A stretch of 64,000 nucleotides of DNA from Longimicrobiales bacterium (GTDB taxonomy: Bacteria; Gemmatimonadota; Gemmatimonadetes; Longimicrobiales; Gaopeijiaceae). Below are positions 29,876-38,567 of this stretch, piece after piece. Every line of letters starts with the position of its first letter. The stretch's first letter is position 1. A model generated the notes under the pieces. It did not search any database and was not told the origin of the DNA. It saw only the letters and a program-made list of their open reading frames with translations. The stretch is from the NCBI GenBank assembly GCA_951813395.1, contig OX638356.1, positions 124,001 through 188,000 on the forward strand, written 5' to 3'. Made by a program: the position numbers and the translations under genes.

Positions 29876-30889
29876 CTACCTCCGGGAACGGGGCGACCCC
29901 CAGGTCCGCCTTGACCATGCCAGGTACTCGGCGTCACTCTCGGGTTCGGGTGTCCACCGCGGGTCGGCGACGATCGAGTACGTCCACAACAGACCGTCCT
30001 CGGCTTCCCAGAGATGACGGAGAATGTTGGGGGGCGGCGCTTCCTGAAACCACGCCCTAACGTCGTCCGGGGAACCAGGGTCGCCGGGCGGGAACCAGTC
30101 GACATCCCGGACGATGGTCAGGTCAGGCCTCCCGGCCATCGTCCAACGTTGAATTTCGTAGGTCCAGTATCTGGCCGCCCAGTAATCGCCGGTCCGTGAT
30201 GGGCCGACCGTTCGCCTGTCCATGTCAGCCATACGCTGCCGAACCATCCTCCGCGACGGAAGCTGGCGCGCGGCCAATTCCTGTCCACTGCCGCTATACC
30301 TTCGAAGCAAGGGGTTGTCACCGCCGCGGATTCCGTGTGCAAGGGTGTGGAAGATGAAACCTCCGTCGGCGAGACGCGCAAAGCCGAAGACGCGCGGCGG
30401 TAGCGTGAACGACGCCACGTAGTTCCCGCTCGGGCCGAGGGTCGTGAGCCGGTCCTGCGATCGGTCGACCACGAACAGGGTATCGGCAGGCCCGACGATC
30501 ACACTGAGGTTCTGTCCGAGTTCGCCTGGACCCTCGCCGCGACGACCCCGCCTGCCCACCAGGGTCCCCAGATGGTCGTAGACGAAGATCTCGCCGCCGC
30601 CCGCGATACCGCTCGACACGTATTCGCCGGTGGAAAGCCGACCGACGATGCAGGCAGTGTGCGCGTTGCCGGACGCGATCGAGGCGGGATCCTCCAGACT
30701 GCCGAGCGTGACCAACTCCTCGAGGACGATTCTACATTCTGCACAGGATGGATCGCCCGAAATGAAGATGCGGCCGTCATCGGCCTCCCGGTCGTCGTAC
30801 GAGCACCCGGTACCGAAGGGGATCGCCACAAGCAAGACTGCTCGAGCGAGGACACGGGAACCTGAAACGCTCCGACCACCGCGAGCCGG
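29876..30889 (-). pseudogene. 6-bladed beta-propeller lipoprotein (copy j), 5' end displaced by IS3
   Basis: The reading frame is open up to the IS3 end at 30890. Beyond the first in-frame start left (TTG 30835, no good ribosome site) the frame still reads RVLARAVLLVAIPFGTGC, a complete lipoprotein signal. The true ATG is at 32321 on the other side of the IS. The family loop RRGEGPGELGQN and three blades are intact to the stop at 29876. Two Cys pairs occur early in the mature chain (CAEC). Expression now depends on a start within the remnant or on an outward promoter. Confidence 0.82.
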
Positions 30890-31060: not shown

Positions 31061-31912
31061 TCAGGCCGCATGGTTGAGTTTCTCGAAGTTCGCCGGCGAC
31101 GTGTAGCCGAGCGCCGAGTGGAGCCGTCGGGTGTTGTAGAAGCCTTCGATGAAGCAGAAGACTTCCCGCCGCGCCTCGGCCATCGTGCGAAAGCGCCGCC
31201 GGTCGAGGAGTTCGCACTCGAGCGTCGCGAAGAAGCTCTCGCACATCGCATTGTCGTACGCGTCGCCGACCGAGCCCATCGACTGCACGACGCCCGCCGC
31301 GCGGCACCGCCTCCCGAAGGCCAGCGACGTGTACTGCGAGCCCTGGTCGGAATGATGGATCACCGGACCCTCCGGCTGACGGCAGGCGATCGCCATCGAC
31401 AGCGCGTCGCCAACCAGATCGGCCGGCATCCGGGGCGCCATCGCCCAGCCGACGATCCGGCGGCTCCACGCGTCGAGCACGACCGCGAGGTAGAGCCAGC
31501 CCGCCCAAGTGGGCACGTAGGTGATGTCGGCCACCCACAACTGGTCGGGCCCTTCGGCCGAGAAGTCCCGGTTCACAAGGTCCGGCGCGGGCTTGGCCTT
31601 GGCGTCCCTGAGCGTCGTGCCCCTCCTGAAGCGCCTGCGCGTCACACCCTCGATACCCAGTTCCCTCATCAGCCGCGCCACCCGCTTGCGGCCCACCCGC
31701 TCGCGCTCGGCCAAGAGCGCCGCGTGGATCCGCGGGGAGCCGTAGACCCCGCCGCTCTCAACCCAGATCGTCAGGATCCTGCCCTTGAGCTCCGCGTCAC
31801 GCCCAGCCCGCGCCGACGGCGGACGGCGCAGCCAGTCATTGTACCCGCTGGTGGAGAGACCCAGCACCCGGCACATGGCTGCCAACGGGAACGCGGCCAG
31901 GTTCGCCTTCAT
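31061..31912 (-). CDS. IS3-family transposase orfB (DDE)
   Basis: 283 residues. HTH_21-like N-terminus, then the rve integrase core with catalytic residues in WVADITYVPTWAGWL (D), VIHHSDQGSQYTS (D) and NAMCESFFATLECEL (E). Start overlaps the orfA stop by four bases, so expression may be by coupling or by frameshifting to an OrfAB fusion. Appears intact. Confidence 0.93.
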   Translation of the reverse strand: MKANLAAFPLAAMCRVLGLSTSGYNDWLRRPPSARAGRDAELKGRILTIWVESGGVYGSPRIHAALLAERERVGRKRVARLMRELGIEGVTRRRFRRGTTLRDAKAKPAPDLVNRDFSAEGPDQLWVADITYVPTWAGWLYLAVVLDAWSRRIVGWAMAPRMPADLVGDALSMAIACRQPEGPVIHHSDQGSQYTSLAFGRRCRAAGVVQSMGSVGDAYDNAMCESFFATLECELLDRRRFRTMAEARREVFCFIEGFYNTRRLHSALGYTSPANFEKLNHAA

Positions 31913-32226
31913 GAACGCATACCCCCGCTGGGGATCGATCCGCTCTCCTTCGCGAACCAGGCCGCGGCTCGCTTTAGGATGTCCCGCTCCATCCGCAGCC
32001 GCTTGTTCTCCCGCTTCAGGCGCCGCATCTCCTTGCGCGCCTCGGTCGTCAGTCCGTCGCTCCGGCGGCCCTCGTCCAGGTCCGCCTGCTTCACCCAGTT
32101 GCGGATCGTCTGCTCAGACGGCTCAAACTCCCGGGCCAGCGATCCCGCACTACGCCCGGCCCTCGCCAGCTCGACGATCCGCTCCTTGTACTCGGGCGAA
32201 TACCGCCCTCGTCTCCTTCCCGCCAT
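31909..32226 (-). CDS. IS3-family orfA (HTH)
   Basis: 105 residues. Begins MAGRRRGRYSPEYKERIVEL, with HTH GSLAREFEPSEQTIRNWVKQ and a leucine-zipper-like tail RRLKRENKRLRMERDILKRA, the usual oligomerisation segment. It ends inside orfB. Confidence 0.92.
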   Translation of the reverse strand: MAGRRRGRYSPEYKERIVELARAGRSAGSLAREFEPSEQTIRNWVKQADLDEGRRSDGLTTEARKEMRRLKRENKRLRMERDILKRAAAWFAKESGSIPSGGMRS

Positions 32227-33344: not shown

Positions 33345-33863
33345 CTAGCAGGGGGGCGACTCAAGAAGCCGTTCTAAAAGGGCCCTGAGTTGGTCTTCAG
33401 CTCCGCCAATCTCATTTTCTTCAATGATCTCGACGAGCCGACCCTGATCCGCTACGTAGACGGCACTCGTTGGCGCACCGTGTCCGAACTCTTCGAAAAA
33501 GACCTGTCGGTTCCACAGAGCCACTCGTGCACTCACCCGCTCCGCACGAAGAAAGTTGCGCACCAACCGATCGTCGTTTTCGTTTACCCTGTCGTCAAGC
33601 GCGACCACCACGACGTCCACCCTGTCGCCGAGCCGGTGTTGCAATCTTCGTACAACTCGCGCCGACGGGCCCAAGGTGCAGCCAAGACACTTCTCGGCAT
33701 CAAAAACCCACACGAGCGACGGGTGGGACAGCGACAGTTCACCCAACGGTAGAGGATCGCCAACGCTCAGCGTTGGGTTCCGATCCACACACCCTGTTGC
33801 AGTCAAAAGGCCCAGTCCCACGACCACGGCGCTCAATCCGCCTGACCGCGCGTGTCGACTCAT
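33345..33863 (-). CDS. Thioredoxin-like lipoprotein with CxxC
   Basis: 172 residues. Signal peptide with lipobox TATGCVDR. Redoxin strand LVWVFDAEKCLGCTLGPSAR carries the CxxC active site. The cis-Pro strand is HGAPTSAVYVADQGRLVE. Probably a periplasm-facing thiol oxidoreductase or reductase. The ATG at 33863 overlaps the stop of propeller copy k by four bases, so they are coupled: a redox partner for the propeller or for the Cys-rich peptide upstream. Confidence 0.8.
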   Translation of the reverse strand: MSRHARSGGLSAVVVGLGLLTATGCVDRNPTLSVGDPLPLGELSLSHPSLVWVFDAEKCLGCTLGPSARVVRRLQHRLGDRVDVVVVALDDRVNENDDRLVRNFLRAERVSARVALWNRQVFFEEFGHGAPTSAVYVADQGRLVEIIEENEIGGAEDQLRALLERLLESPPC

Positions 33864-34951
33864 GACGCAATTCTCCGCCGGGCCACGATCAGGCGATTGG
33901 GCAAGACAGAAGCCGGGTCATCGAAGTAGTAGAGGTCCTCGCGATCGACCAGCAGCAATCTCGGACTCCTGGCAAGCTGCAGGCTGGCCTGGCCGAACCG
34001 GTCCATGATCAGAAGGTCGGTCTCGAAGCCGCGGCCGTCGCTTCGGGCGGCCTGAACCGCGACCTCTCCGTTGGCTAGCAGGAATACATCAGCGACCTGG
34101 GTTATCGCACCGATGGCATCGATGGCATCAGGGTCCACCATCGCCATGCCCTCGATCGAAGGAACGGGCCCAGTCGGATGGGGTAGCGGCATCGCCACCT
34201 CCGCGAGACGCTCCCCGCCGCGGCTGAACTTGTAGAGCGTATCAGACAGCGCCCACACAGCCCAGATGGTGTCCCCTTCAACGACGGCGCTCACGGACGG
34301 AAACGAACTACCGGCCGCGCGGGACGCTTCTGGAAGGCCCATTGGAAGAAACCTCCGTTCAACCCGCCCGGCCGTCGTGTCCCATATGTGAAGGAAACGA
34401 GGTTGGCCGATATCGCCTCCCCCTGGACCAAGGAGCAGGAACCGGCCAGCCCCAAGATCCTTCGCGCCCAGGAAAGGTGTCACCGGTACGTTTCCCGCCA
34501 AGCCCGCGAAGCTTCCCTCAGGCGAGAAAAAGCTCATCCGCGAAAGCGTCGGGTCCGTCACAACGATGCGCCCATCCATGGCTCGTGAGGCCGACACGGG
34601 CGTCAGAAACTCACCTGGTCCCTCACCCCGGCGCCCGATCACCGTCCGGAGCGAACCGTCTTCACTGTAGAGGCGGACCTGGGCTTCAGGCTGATCGACC
34701 ACGATCAGCTCACCAGTCCGACCGGCGCTAATTACCGGAACTACGGTGATCACTTCCTCATTCTCTTCCAGCGTGAGCGCGCGCACCGGCTCGAACGCAG
34801 CAAAGAACGCAGCGGTGTCCACCGAAAGCTCTTCTGGGACTTGGCGCGGAGCGGCGCTTCCCCCGTCCTGCTCCTGCCTCGCCTCCACGCCACAGGCGCC
34901 GAGTAGAGGCAGGAGCAGGAACAGTTGGCCGAAGCCCGGGGCGAGCTTCAT
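33860..34951 (-). CDS. 6-bladed beta-propeller lipoprotein (copy k)
   Basis: 363 residues from ATG 34951. Leader GFGQLFLLLPLLGACGVEA with lipobox. The family loop RRGEGPGEFLTP is near residue 106 after QPEAQVRLYSEDGSLRTVIG. The start overlaps the Cys-rich peptide stop and the end overlaps the thioredoxin-like start, both by ATGA, giving a tight three-gene operon. Confidence 0.86.
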   Translation of the reverse strand: MKLAPGFGQLFLLLPLLGACGVEARQEQDGGSAAPRQVPEELSVDTAAFFAAFEPVRALTLEENEEVITVVPVISAGRTGELIVVDQPEAQVRLYSEDGSLRTVIGRRGEGPGEFLTPVSASRAMDGRIVVTDPTLSRMSFFSPEGSFAGLAGNVPVTPFLGAKDLGAGRFLLLGPGGGDIGQPRFLHIWDTTAGRVERRFLPMGLPEASRAAGSSFPSVSAVVEGDTIWAVWALSDTLYKFSRGGERLAEVAMPLPHPTGPVPSIEGMAMVDPDAIDAIGAITQVADVFLLANGEVAVQAARSDGRGFETDLLIMDRFGQASLQLARSPRLLLVDREDLYYFDDPASVLPNRLIVARRRIAS

Positions 34952-35193
34952 GCGTCGCCGCCGACCCAGAAACAGCACCAACCCGGGGTGCACGCGTTTT
35001 CGCACAACAAACCCCAAGGCATGAAATAAGCCTTCCAGGGATTCGAACCGGCCGCGGGCGAAACCGCAGTGACAGTCGTTTCGGTCGGCGGGAGTGTCGT
35101 CGCCGCGCTGGCGGGCACGGAGGCAGTCACGAACAGCAGCGCCAGGAAGAGGGGAAAGCGATACAGCCAGGTCCTTCTAATGGTCGAGTCCAT
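34948..35193 (-). CDS. Secreted Cys-rich small peptide (81 aa)
   Basis: ATG at 35193 with AAAGGAC upstream. Signal peptide of about 30 residues (FLALLFVTASVPASAA), a Thr/Pro linker (TTLPPTETTVTAVSP), and a C-terminal aromatic/Cys segment WGLLCENACTPGWCCFWVGG with four Cys. Coupled to propeller copy k by a 4-base overlap. Size, position and Cys tail recall the NVEALA-type peptides that accompany 6-bladed propeller genes in Bacteroidota, but the NVEALA motif is absent. Function unknown. Confidence 0.68.
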   Translation of the reverse strand: MDSTIRRTWLYRFPLFLALLFVTASVPASAATTLPPTETTVTAVSPAAGSNPWKAYFMPWGLLCENACTPGWCCFWVGGDA

Positions 35194-35377
35194 TGGTCGT
35201 CCTTTCGGCAAGGGGTGGGACTCTGAGGTTCCGCGACCCTCGTGGCCGCGGGCTTGAAGCTTGTAAAGGAATGGTGGATCTTCATCGGAATGTGACACTC
35301 TCGCCACTCCATATACTTGACAGATGTCGCAGCCGAAACGTGCAATCCCGATGGGAACGAACCCAATGCGCCGCAGA

Positions 35378-35968
35378 TCATGTCCTTCCGCCGCCAAGCG
35401 CTCGAGCCACCTCGGGAAGGCCGTTGCCATGACCATCGATCACGACCCGGCCCTCCTGGTCCAGCGCGATTACCCATGGTGTCCGTCGAGTCAGCATGGC
35501 GGCGTCCGGCTGGCCTGCAGGATGCTCCACAGACACAACCTCAACGGGCCATTGGTGCTCGTTGGCGAAGTCAATCGCTTCGGCCAGGGAGCCCAACGAC
35601 ATCGCTAGAAGGCGATATCCTTCAAGCTCTTTGCCAGCAAGCCAAGACGACCAAGCTGGCGCAACACGACGCGTGTGGACGCAGTCAGGATCGAAAACGA
35701 GCAGCAGGGTGGATTGGCCCGCCCCCAACTTGGCCAGGGTCCCGTCGGCATGCCTTATGAGTACTGACGACAGATTGTAGCCGACCGGAATCGGATTGAC
35801 TCGCGAGTCGGAATCGAACATCGGGGCACGTAGGACGCCCGCCTGACCAATCGCTGTAGCAGCCAAGACAATGACGAACGTGTGGCTCCGCCAAGCTCGC
35901 CCACGAGCGGGCCTACGGCCCACGGTGCGAGTCACGGGGCAGGTTCGATGGCTGAGTTCATCGGTCAA
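35378..35968 (-). CDS. Redoxin-like protein, membrane-anchored
   Basis: 196 residues from a TTG at 35968. N-terminal TM helix (SHTFVIVLAATAIGQAGVL). Thioredoxin-fold strand TLLLVFDPDCVHTRRVAPAW has a single active-site Cys (CVHT instead of CxxC), then RRTPWVIALDQEGRVVIDGH with the cis-Pro. Resembles TlpA/peroxiredoxin-like proteins lacking the resolving Cys. It is 184 bases upstream of the Cys-rich peptide gene on the same strand. Confidence 0.72.
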   Translation of the reverse strand: MTDELSHRTCPVTRTVGRRPARGRAWRSHTFVIVLAATAIGQAGVLRAPMFDSDSRVNPIPVGYNLSSVLIRHADGTLAKLGAGQSTLLLVFDPDCVHTRRVAPAWSSWLAGKELEGYRLLAMSLGSLAEAIDFANEHQWPVEVVSVEHPAGQPDAAMLTRRTPWVIALDQEGRVVIDGHGNGLPEVARALGGGRT

Positions 35969-35986
35969 TGAGATGTGGCCCGCGCC

Positions 35987-36193
35987 TCACGCGCGAGTGC
36001 GAGGCCTTTCCCGGGTCAGTTGGCTCATCTCGTCTCTCAGTGCGCGAAGCTCAGGCGGCGGATCAGTGTGACCGTGGGCGATGAGACGATCCAGTATCTC
36101 GCTGTGGCGATACGCCAGTGTCTCGACACGCCGGAGCCTCTGCGTCAGGGTCAGTCGCACTTCTGGAATGTCGCCAGCCGTTCTGTTGGCCAT
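35987..36193 (-). CDS. Small helical protein, unknown
   Basis: 68 residues from ATG 36193 (TGGAGCAG upstream). Predicted amphipathic helices: RLTLTQRLRRVETLAYRHSE and PPELRALRDEMSQLTRE. It ends 18 bases before the redoxin-like gene, so it is likely co-transcribed. No family recognised. Confidence 0.45.
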   Translation of the reverse strand: MANRTAGDIPEVRLTLTQRLRRVETLAYRHSEILDRLIAHGHTDPPPELRALRDEMSQLTRERPRTRA

Positions 36194-36490
36194 GATGTGT
36201 CTGCTCCACATGATCCAAGCCGAATCTTGGGCTCGGCTACTAAGGTCTCCACTCAACTGACAGTTCTCGTCGCCCAAATGTGCAATGCGCTGTTCCGCGG
36301 GCCGTGGGCTGTAGGTAGGGGCGCTCGCCAATGCGGTCAGGACCGTGCTCGATCGGGTTGGGGACTCGGTCAGAGTCGCCGCTGACCACGGGGATTGCAC
36401 TTTTCTTCCTTGAGAACTGTCAATTAATGGTATCGCCAGTTTTGCCTCATCAACTCAGGGGCCGTCAGGTCCCAAATCGGAGGACGAAAG

Positions 36491-36688
36491 TTGCGAACGA
36501 TCAAGGTGGTCCTTATCCTGCTCAACCTCGTTCTGGCAGTGGCTTTGGTGACGGGGGCGAGCGCCGCACGCTCGACCGACGCAAAGCGCTCTTGCTGTCG
36601 GGGGGATGGTCCGGAAGCGTACTGTTGCTACGGCTGCTGTTGGCTCTTTCCGGGCTGCGATCGCGACAGCGACTGCCGGGAAGGGTAA
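36491..36688 (+). CDS. Secreted Cys-rich small peptide (65 aa, 8 Cys)
   Basis: TTG start at 36491 with GGAGG nine bases upstream. Signal peptide IKVVLILLNLVLAVALVTGA cleaved after SAA. Mature about 40 residues with RSCCRGDGPEAYCC, YGCCWLFPGCDRDSDC: three vicinal CC pairs plus two single Cys. The codon order is coding-like and the ribosome site strong. Followed 39 bases later by a membrane protein and then the sigma/anti-sigma pair. Function unknown; disulfide-rich toxin, signal, or modified peptide are all open. Confidence 0.65.
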   Translation: MRTIKVVLILLNLVLAVALVTGASAARSTDAKRSCCRGDGPEAYCCYGCCWLFPGCDRDSDCREG

Positions 36689-36727
36689 GCAGTAGCGACG
36701 GCTTTCCGAGGGAGCACGACGGCGACG

Positions 36728-37561
36728 ATGGCGGATACATTGCGCGGATACGCAGCGTGGATGGGGGCGGTCGCGAGAGCGATGTTGCCCTGGTGTTTGC
36801 TATTTGTCGTCGGCAAGCCGCTGTTGGAACTGCGGCGGCCTCCGTATGAGTGGTCCGTAAGCTCTCTACGGTGGGTGTGGGGTGTTACTGAAGACGCCGC
36901 GTTAGCTCTCCCGTTCTTGGTCTTTGCGGGTGGCGTGGCACTGGTTCGGGTGCTGGGAGACTCCCGGCGCCTCGTACGAACGGCGGTGACTGTCGGTATC
37001 GCAGCGGGTACGGTTTCATACGCTTTGGGCGCTTGGGTAGCACCAGAGGTACACAGTCGTTTCTTGGCTGCCTTGGACGCCGAAACCGTGGATTTGCGAC
37101 GGTTCGGGCCAAGAACCCCGACCGGCATCCTAGAGAACCTGCGGTTCGTGGAGGCAACCCCGCCCGAAGAATACACCTTGAGTGTCAGGGCTCCACACCG
37201 GTTCCCTCCGAACGTGCTCCGTTGGGAGCTGCATGGCCCTCCCGCGATGGCGGTGTTCGGCGTCATCAACGTGCTTCTGGGTGTGCTGGCCGCAAAGCTG
37301 ACCCTCGATCTTAGTCGTCGGGCACAGCGGCACGCTCGACTGGCAATCGGTGTGTTCGGAGGGATCGGTTTCTTCGCATGTCTCGCCGCAGCATCTCCCG
37401 TGGAGTCCTTTCTGCGCGATGGCACCATGCGATCGGGAATCCTCGGTGCGTGGGCGCCGCTCGTCTTCCCGTTAGTACAGGCGTTCGTGCTCGTGTACCT
37501 GGTCCGTCGGCGGGCACGCCGCCGAACCAGGACACGACCGGCCGTACCCGTCGGGAGATGA
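36728..37561 (+). CDS. Polytopic membrane protein, six TM, LptF/G-like layout
   Basis: 277 residues. Three TM helices (about 15-32, 55-75, 88-108), a periplasmic segment (about 109-165), then three more (about 170-190, 208-225, 238-260). This 3+3 layout with an intervening beta-like domain is seen in LptF/LptG permeases, but the domain is too short for a confident call. Basic C-terminus RRRARRRTRTR is cytoplasmic. In a plus-strand cluster with the Cys-rich peptide and ECF pair. Confidence 0.6.
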   Translation: MADTLRGYAAWMGAVARAMLPWCLLFVVGKPLLELRRPPYEWSVSSLRWVWGVTEDAALALPFLVFAGGVALVRVLGDSRRLVRTAVTVGIAAGTVSYALGAWVAPEVHSRFLAALDAETVDLRRFGPRTPTGILENLRFVEATPPEEYTLSVRAPHRFPPNVLRWELHGPPAMAVFGVINVLLGVLAAKLTLDLSRRAQRHARLAIGVFGGIGFFACLAAASPVESFLRDGTMRSGILGAWAPLVFPLVQAFVLVYLVRRRARRRTRTRPAVPVGR

Positions 37562-37591
37562 GCAATGCGAGAGGCCGGTCCGTAGGCTTCG

Positions 37592-38140
37592 ATGGGTGAA
37601 TCGACCCGGCCCGACTTCGACAGCTTCCGGCCACTGTTGCGGCGTTTTGGTCCTCTCATCGAGACGGTCGCCGCGCAATACGCCACAGACGGCGATGATC
37701 AGGATGATCTATACCAGGAGATTTGCATCCGCATTCTGGACCGAATACACCAGTACGAAGGCCGCGGCGCGCTGGGGGGATGGATCCAGAGGTTGGCACA
37801 TCGTTTCGCCAGGAACTGGTGTAACGCGCGCACGGCCCACAAGGCGCGGCTGGAACGATACGCTGCGGAAATGCTGCCGATGGAAGCTGCTGGATCTCTG
37901 GTCGACAACCCGGAGAAACTGATGGACTACAAGGAGTTCCTGAAAGGTCTGGGACACGCCTTCGCCCGCCTCCCGGAACGGCAATCGGATGTGATGGTCT
38001 TGATCCACTTGAAGGGGTGCAGTATTGCTGAAGTGGCCGAGATCCTGAAGTCGAAGGAAGCAACGATACGATCTCATCATCGGCACGCCAGAGAGAGCCT
38101 TCGGAAGATGCTGGGAGACGGAAATGATGACTTGCCCTGA
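37592..38140 (+). CDS. ECF-type RNA polymerase sigma factor
   Basis: 182 residues. Sigma region 2 is DQDDLYQEICIRILDRIHQY to GGWIQRLAHRFARNW. Region 4 is LPERQSDVMVLIHLKGCSIA, EVAEILKSKEATIRSHHRHA, with the HTH that contacts the -35 element. Stop overlaps the anti-sigma start by 17 bases, as in ECF/anti-sigma pairs. Confidence 0.92.
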   Translation: MGESTRPDFDSFRPLLRRFGPLIETVAAQYATDGDDQDDLYQEICIRILDRIHQYEGRGALGGWIQRLAHRFARNWCNARTAHKARLERYAAEMLPMEAAGSLVDNPEKLMDYKEFLKGLGHAFARLPERQSDVMVLIHLKGCSIAEVAEILKSKEATIRSHHRHARESLRKMLGDGNDDLP

Positions 38141-38567
38141 CAGCACCATGCTTGCCCGCACGGACGCGCCGGATGCCGATCCGGAGTTGGTCGAGCATAT
38201 CAAGACATGCCCTTCGTGCTGGCTGGACTGGCAGATTCAGAATGGCTTGCGCCATGTTTTGGATCCCCAGATAGAGGTTCGGACGGATCTGAACGAACGG
38301 GTAATTGCCAGGATGGCCCTGAGAGCAGCGCAGCTGGAGAGGACTCTACGGTGGCAGGATGTCGCGATGTCCGTGGTGCTGGTCGTGGTAGCGACGGGCG
38401 TCTTTTTTCTGGCGACCGAGACCGCGGGCCCGGTAGTGTCCGTCTCAACGGCGCTCTATGCGATCGCGGCAGGTATCGCGACCGCGCTTTACGTGAAACG
38501 AGAGGACCGTAACGAACGCGCGGCGGTAGTAGCTGAGGCGGGAGCGTCTCTGGGGTCACCCGCCTGA
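38124..38567 (+). CDS. Membrane anti-sigma factor, ZAS-type
   Basis: 147 residues. Zinc-binding H25-xxx-C29-xx-C32 in ELVEHIKTCPSCWLDWQ, with Cys4 as a possible fourth ligand. Two TM helices (about 70-90 and 95-115) anchor it. It should hold the ECF sigma factor inactive until an envelope signal arrives; the Cys-zinc centre also allows thiol-redox sensing. Confidence 0.85.
   Translation: MMTCPDSTMLARTDAPDADPELVEHIKTCPSCWLDWQIQNGLRHVLDPQIEVRTDLNERVIARMALRAAQLERTLRWQDVAMSVVLVVVATGVFFLATETAGPVVSVSTALYAIAAGIATALYVKREDRNERAAVVAEAGASLGSPA

Follow-up and report, generated by a model that had tools for sequence, protein, structure and literature searches.

A conserved gene module for a small cysteine-rich peptide, a six-bladed propeller lipoprotein and a thioredoxin-fold lipoprotein in Gemmatimonadota

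Genes of the peptide-propeller-thioredoxin module

We examined a run of minus-strand genes in a 64,000-nucleotide window of a Longimicrobiales bacterium (contig OX638356.1, positions 124,001 to 188,000), which is part of a 4.09-Mb single-contig genome. A preliminary description of this DNA assigned four open reading frames (ORFs) to one operon, encoding a redoxin-like protein, a small cysteine-rich peptide, a propeller lipoprotein and a thioredoxin-like lipoprotein. All four ORFs are present on the minus strand at the coordinates given there. Three of them make up what we call module A: PEP1, a small secreted peptide of 81 amino acids with a C-x3-C-x4-CC core (34948-35193); a six-bladed, DUF5128-like propeller lipoprotein of 363 amino acids (33860-34951); and a thioredoxin-fold lipoprotein of 172 amino acids with a CLGC motif (Trx; 33345-33863). 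The neighbourhood consists of two adjacent systems, module A and a second one that we call system B, and not of one four-gene operon.

Within module A, the ATGA overlaps reported at both joints are indeed there: the PEP1 stop codon (34948-34950) runs into the propeller start ATG at 34951, and the propeller stop at 33860 into the Trx ATG at 33863. PEP1 begins at the ATG at 35193 and not at the longest-ORF start; in a related genome (G020), a disrupted relative retains this ATG together with the ribosome-binding site and the sequence upstream. Signal peptides and lipoboxes were called by a hydropathy and motif script, not a trained predictor; these calls give the propeller an LGAC lipobox and Trx an ATGC lipobox in addition to its CLGC.

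The AlphaFold2 model of Trx (pLDDT 86) has TlpA/ResA-type thiol-disulfide oxidoreductases as its nearest solved folds (Foldseek E ~1e-6), and the profile match to ResA is weak (E 0.04). The lipobox cysteine and the active site, CL[GTAQ]C, are kept in 18/18 members, none of which matches a Pfam family at E 0.01. Trx thus resembles TlpA and ResA in its predicted thioredoxin fold, CxxC motif and predicted export and anchoring, and differs from them in having CLGC rather than WCxxC, in lacking a Pfam match and in being accompanied by genes for a propeller and a peptide. For the propeller, the model (pLDDT 82 overall, with the N-terminal 40 residues disordered) has six blades by its strand pattern, and NHL domains and Bacteroides DUF4221/BF0058 proteins are among its structural matches. 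It scores 25.8 bits against PF17170 (DUF5128; curated cut-off 22.9), a family matched at E 0.001 by only 5/19 members of its subfamily. The six-bladed fold is common to the Bacteroidota DUF5128/DUF4221 propellers (3s9j, 4raa), from which the protein differs in its 11-12% identity and in belonging to a Gemmatimonadota subfamily with conserved motifs of its own and a coupled Trx.

PEP1-type peptides have no convincing relative in Pfam, NCBIfam or the PDB. Among 31 aligned peptides, the start methionine and four cysteines are the only invariant positions. Searches with the single PEP1 sequence gave mostly chance matches, and we used a peptide profile instead. Applied without regard to gene context, this profile matched 20/298 genomes, of which 18 also appear among the genomes matched by a propeller profile; one of the remaining two has a propeller beside the peptide (L303). 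The invariance of the four cysteines and the near confinement of profile matches to propeller/thioredoxin loci argue that PEP1 is not a chance ORF.

Conservation, rearrangement and loss of module A

The Trx lipoprotein was detected in 19/154 genomes of the order (E <= 1e-6). In the regions that were fetched, Trx adjoins a homologous propeller gene, which as a rule immediately precedes it, overlapping by 4 bp or separated by a few bp. Downstream or upstream of the pair are one to three small ORFs, each with a signal-like N-terminus, a ribosome-binding site and a cysteine-rich C-terminus. The parts recur in 19 tabulated related Gemmatimonadota loci in three orders, all of which keep every part: peptide-propeller-Trx in the window and L088, propeller-Trx followed by one to three peptides in most loci, and Trx-peptide-propeller in L103. 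The parts are therefore shuffled in order, yet stay together. In one locus (L089:6615-8264) propeller and Trx are fused into a single ORF of 549 amino acids without a second signal peptide. Peptide, propeller and Trx thus form one conserved module, as had been proposed; the lack of conservation of the small ORF or of the gene order in relatives, which the preliminary description took as counting against such a system, was not found.

The propeller profile (E <= 1e-40) extends the family to 27/395 genomes of the phylum, including other families and orders of the class. Trx and cysteine-rich peptides adjoin the propeller in many of these loci (L154, L155, L156, L158, L159, L161, L163, L164 and L167), and five others (L157, L160, L162, L165 and L166) have a propeller without a convincing peptide. 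The carriers related to the window are all metagenome-assembled Gemmatimonadota, two of them labelled Longimicrobiales; judging by bin names, the hosts are apparently largely associated with marine sponges.

Within the genus, Trx and propeller occur in the same 15/23 genomes, each of which also has peptides, and module A is absent from the other 8/23. Its usual site has nuoN-phosphomannomutase on one side and, on the other, permeases with a convergent PIG-L deacetylase (genes named by inspection). In at least five of the genomes that lack module A (G013, G015, G021, G023 and G026) the flanking genes are present with nothing of the module between them. Module A is thus present or absent as a unit. 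The window copy is a second, accessory one, whose relatives are found in G020 and G017; close to it is an IS3-like element (31061-32226), identified by inspection. In G020 the corresponding peptide is split: the half with the signal sequence, which retains the upstream sequence and ATG of the window copy, is found ~25 kb away on the contig. A short DNA sequence, GTGATYTCCTGCCGGGATTC, is shared between this break and the region upstream of another propeller/peptide pair (L087:9077-9096 and L193:6145-6164), and is possibly a repeat or recombination site. An orphan propeller 72% identical to that of the window was also seen (L109:4947-6029), with no adjoining Trx or peptide and an HTH/ImmA-like gene nearby.

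We compared rates of substitution among four genomes (G027, G017, G030 and G000). Pairwise dN/dS was 0.30-0.71 for three orthologous peptide sets, 0.26-0.48 for Trx and 0.18-0.29 for the propeller. The peptides are constrained by purifying selection and give no sign of diversification.

System B and other propeller-associated peptides

System B (35378-38567) lies next to module A. On the minus strand it encodes the redoxin-like protein (RED; 35378-35968), which has a predicted membrane-anchored, monothiol thioredoxin fold, and a conserved 68-amino-acid ORF (35987-36193) that is 72-78% identical and in the same place in G017 and G012. Divergent from these, the plus strand encodes PEP2, a second cysteine-rich peptide of 65 amino acids (36491-36688); a 277-amino-acid membrane protein (36728-37561) without a Pfam match above cut-off, whose homologue follows PEP2 in nearly all system B loci; an extracytoplasmic function (ECF) sigma factor (Sigma70-ECF; 37592-38140) conserved with PEP2; and an anti-sigma-like protein (38124-38567) conserved next to the sigma gene and assigned its function by position. 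The 20 fetched system B loci contain RED, PEP2, the membrane protein and the sigma pair, with few members missing.

The redoxin-like gene had been placed in one operon with PEP1, the propeller and Trx. This assignment does not hold. RED ends 184 bp before the PEP1 start with no overlap, and tblastn with RED found no homologue in 20 fetched module A loci. RED and PEP2 matches pair up genome after genome across the genus, and because RED tracks PEP2 and not module A we assign it to system B. Its active site, CVHT, contains one cysteine, not two; homologues keep this invariant Cys96 and the TP loop motif. RED is distantly related to Trx (hhalign probability 91%).

PEP2 occurs in 19/298 genomes of the phylum, and its eight cysteines are kept in 21/21 aligned sequences with the pattern CC..G..AYCC-x2-CCW. 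We rejected a relationship between PEP1 and PEP2, for which profile comparison gave a probability of 11%. The hydrophobic N-terminus of PEP2 contains an invariant asparagine, which is odd for a plain signal peptide. Propellers are also found near system B. A same-strand propeller lies downstream of RED within ~2.3 kb in 13/21 loci, the window included, and RED overlaps a propeller gene by 4 bp in L243, L248 and L252. For two of the closest relatives (L234 and L235), a secreted protein containing seven cysteines is encoded ahead of this downstream propeller. System B is a second system whose logic is similar to that of module A.

The host genome itself has ~90 propeller ORFs in the 718 kb sampled (the window, L096 and L170-L209), an extreme expansion, and most lack a cysteine-rich peptide directly upstream. 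One of these propellers, at 29876-30835 of the window, has a CAEC motif at its N-terminus and adjoins an IS3-like transposase pair. To compare propellers with other genes we combined the 718 kb of G000, which had been selected around propellers, with 800 kb of G033 taken in roughly even steps. Secreted cysteine-rich small ORFs lie directly upstream of 7/120 propellers vs 3/803 other genes (Fisher p = 4.6e-5), and in G033 alone of 2/37 vs 0/457 (p = 0.005); these p-values are indicative because the filter rules were adjusted between runs. Of the three non-propeller cases, one is PEP2, another is a spurious ORF within the second locus of module A, and the third is a DsbA-like gene followed by a propeller (L204). 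The association between cysteine-rich peptides and propellers is thus real, but limited to a minority of propellers.

The preliminary description suggested that the association may be general, and drew a link to NVEALA peptides (PF14055), small exported peptides that are said to neighbour propellers in Bacteroidota. The statistical enrichment bears out the first point within this phylum. NVEALA peptides offer an analogy at most, and membership in that family was rejected, since PF14055 scored above cut-off in 0/121 Gemmatimonadota genomes while a Bacteroides control was positive. An independent version of the peptide/oxidoreductase/propeller theme is found in two loci (L204:12312-14493 and L241:5997-8080), where a cysteine-rich peptide, a DsbA-like oxidoreductase and a propeller lie in one run. 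Longer secreted-looking proteins of 146-161 amino acids with 7-9 cysteines were also observed (L234:3713-4153, L235:3756-4199, L181:6106-6591 and L250:3576-4040). They abut or overlap propeller starts, and those of L234, L235 and L181 have a C-terminal stretch in common.

Possible function of module A

We see about an even chance that module A is a three-component cell-envelope system in which a tethered oxidoreductase sets the disulfides of a peptide that the propeller binds. The precursor would be exported by Sec and cut to a peptide of roughly 30-50 residues, with four cysteines (C-x3/4-C-x3-8-CC) and a short aromatic or hydrophobic strand. Disulfides in this peptide may be made, reduced or reshuffled by Trx, the lipid-anchored CxxC protein, and the propeller, likewise lipid-anchored and coupled to Trx in translation, would bind the peptide as receptor, carrier or scaffold. 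Here we infer export, lipidation, disulfide chemistry on the peptide and propeller-peptide binding. That a secreted four-cysteine peptide is seldom found apart from a propeller and a tethered CxxC protein would be most simply explained by thiol chemistry acting on the peptide and by its binding to the propeller, and the L089 fusion and the gene overlaps suggest that propeller and Trx act together.

Several observations weigh against this account. The thioredoxin-typical cis-proline is not present in all Trx members, although most have a proline near that position. One peptide copy, in G020, has been broken by rearrangement, and in G027 an orphan copy of the propeller has neither peptide nor Trx. 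Four cysteines beside a thioredoxin also fit metal binding. Finally, ~94% of propellers in the sampled genomes lack a peptide of this kind immediately upstream, so there is no general tie between propeller function and the peptide.

Other functions would use the same parts differently. The peptides may be secreted antimicrobials (bacteriocin-like) or host-acting disulfide peptides, with propeller and CxxC lipoproteins as folding factor and self-protection. One to three divergent secreted peptides per locus, with probable two-disulfide, aromatic cores, would suit such a role, as would the gain and loss of module A as a cassette and the many metagenome-assembled, apparently sponge-associated hosts; we nevertheless consider it unlikely, given that selection on the peptides is purifying and not diversifying, that three distinct paralogues are each retained in four genomes, that module A has no conserved neighbour encoding a dedicated exporter or protease, and that no match to defence or toxin families was found. 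An anti-phage defence reading was likewise rejected for lack of a defence family match, as was a ribosomally synthesized and post-translationally modified peptide with a maturase, the conserved neighbours appearing by inspection to be nuo, phosphomannomutase, PIG-L deacetylase and permease genes. It also seems improbable that the peptides serve as thiolate ligands for metal (copper, zinc or iron-sulfur), kept reduced for metallation by the CxxC protein and docked, once loaded, by the propeller. TlpA has an established role in keeping cysteines reduced for metallation of CuA and Sco, and the TlpA/ResA/Sco-like fold matches of Trx and the four invariant cysteines recall it; however, the peptides have no conserved histidine or methionine as in CuA, the distance between the second and third cysteines differs greatly among peptides, a feature more in keeping with loops than with a metal site, and no metal transport gene is conserved near module A.

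System B combines a cysteine-rich peptide and a thioredoxin-fold protein with an ECF sigma/anti-sigma pair, which raises the idea that the module A peptide acts as a redox or peptide signal, with the propeller as its sensor and regulation by ECF sigma systems of this kind. We regard this as decidedly unlikely, as module A itself has no linked regulator and the two peptide families are unrelated by profile. Least of all do we favour the peptide as a small subunit of a periplasmic propeller enzyme. In methylamine dehydrogenase the thioredoxin-like MauD helps to fold the cysteine-rich small subunit, and another subunit is a propeller. On general knowledge, MauD, MauA and MauB are thus the same three kinds of part as in module A: a thioredoxin-like helper, a cysteine-rich small subunit and a propeller. 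The Mau system differs in its seven blades, against six here, its tryptophan-derived cofactor and its membrane partner: the conserved tryptophan pair that supplies this cofactor is not present in the 31 aligned peptides, and no MauE- or cytochrome-like partner was noticed. The occurrence of one to three divergent peptides per propeller also argues against an enzyme subunit.

Whichever function the peptides serve, the conserved, small and cassette-like partner set of module A makes the function of some expanded propeller lipoproteins testable, and PEP1 and its homologues add a new family of very small peptides, probably with disulfide bonds, from bacteria that seem to be associated with sponges. 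More broadly, we raise tentatively the possibility of a large undescribed class of envelope systems in Gemmatimonadota, in which many unrelated families of secreted cysteine-rich peptides would each have a dedicated propeller lipoprotein and thioredoxin-fold protein, as a modular platform for folding and binding that is reused from one peptide to another and is under sigma-factor control in some cases.

We found no paper describing such a three-part module in the open-licence literature, and the peptide-propeller-Trx surface module is previously undescribed. In NHLRC2, a Trx-like domain and a six-bladed NHL propeller belong to a single polypeptide and have a conserved cleft between them; the authors of that study found no conservation of neighbouring genes in bacteria (PMC6107167). 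The L089 fusion has the same two kinds of domain in reversed order, the propeller preceding Trx. NHLRC2 also has a CCINC motif and no peptide partner, whereas module A has CLxC (CLGC in L089) and a peptide partner. As a natural propeller-thioredoxin fusion, the L089 protein is useful for structural work.
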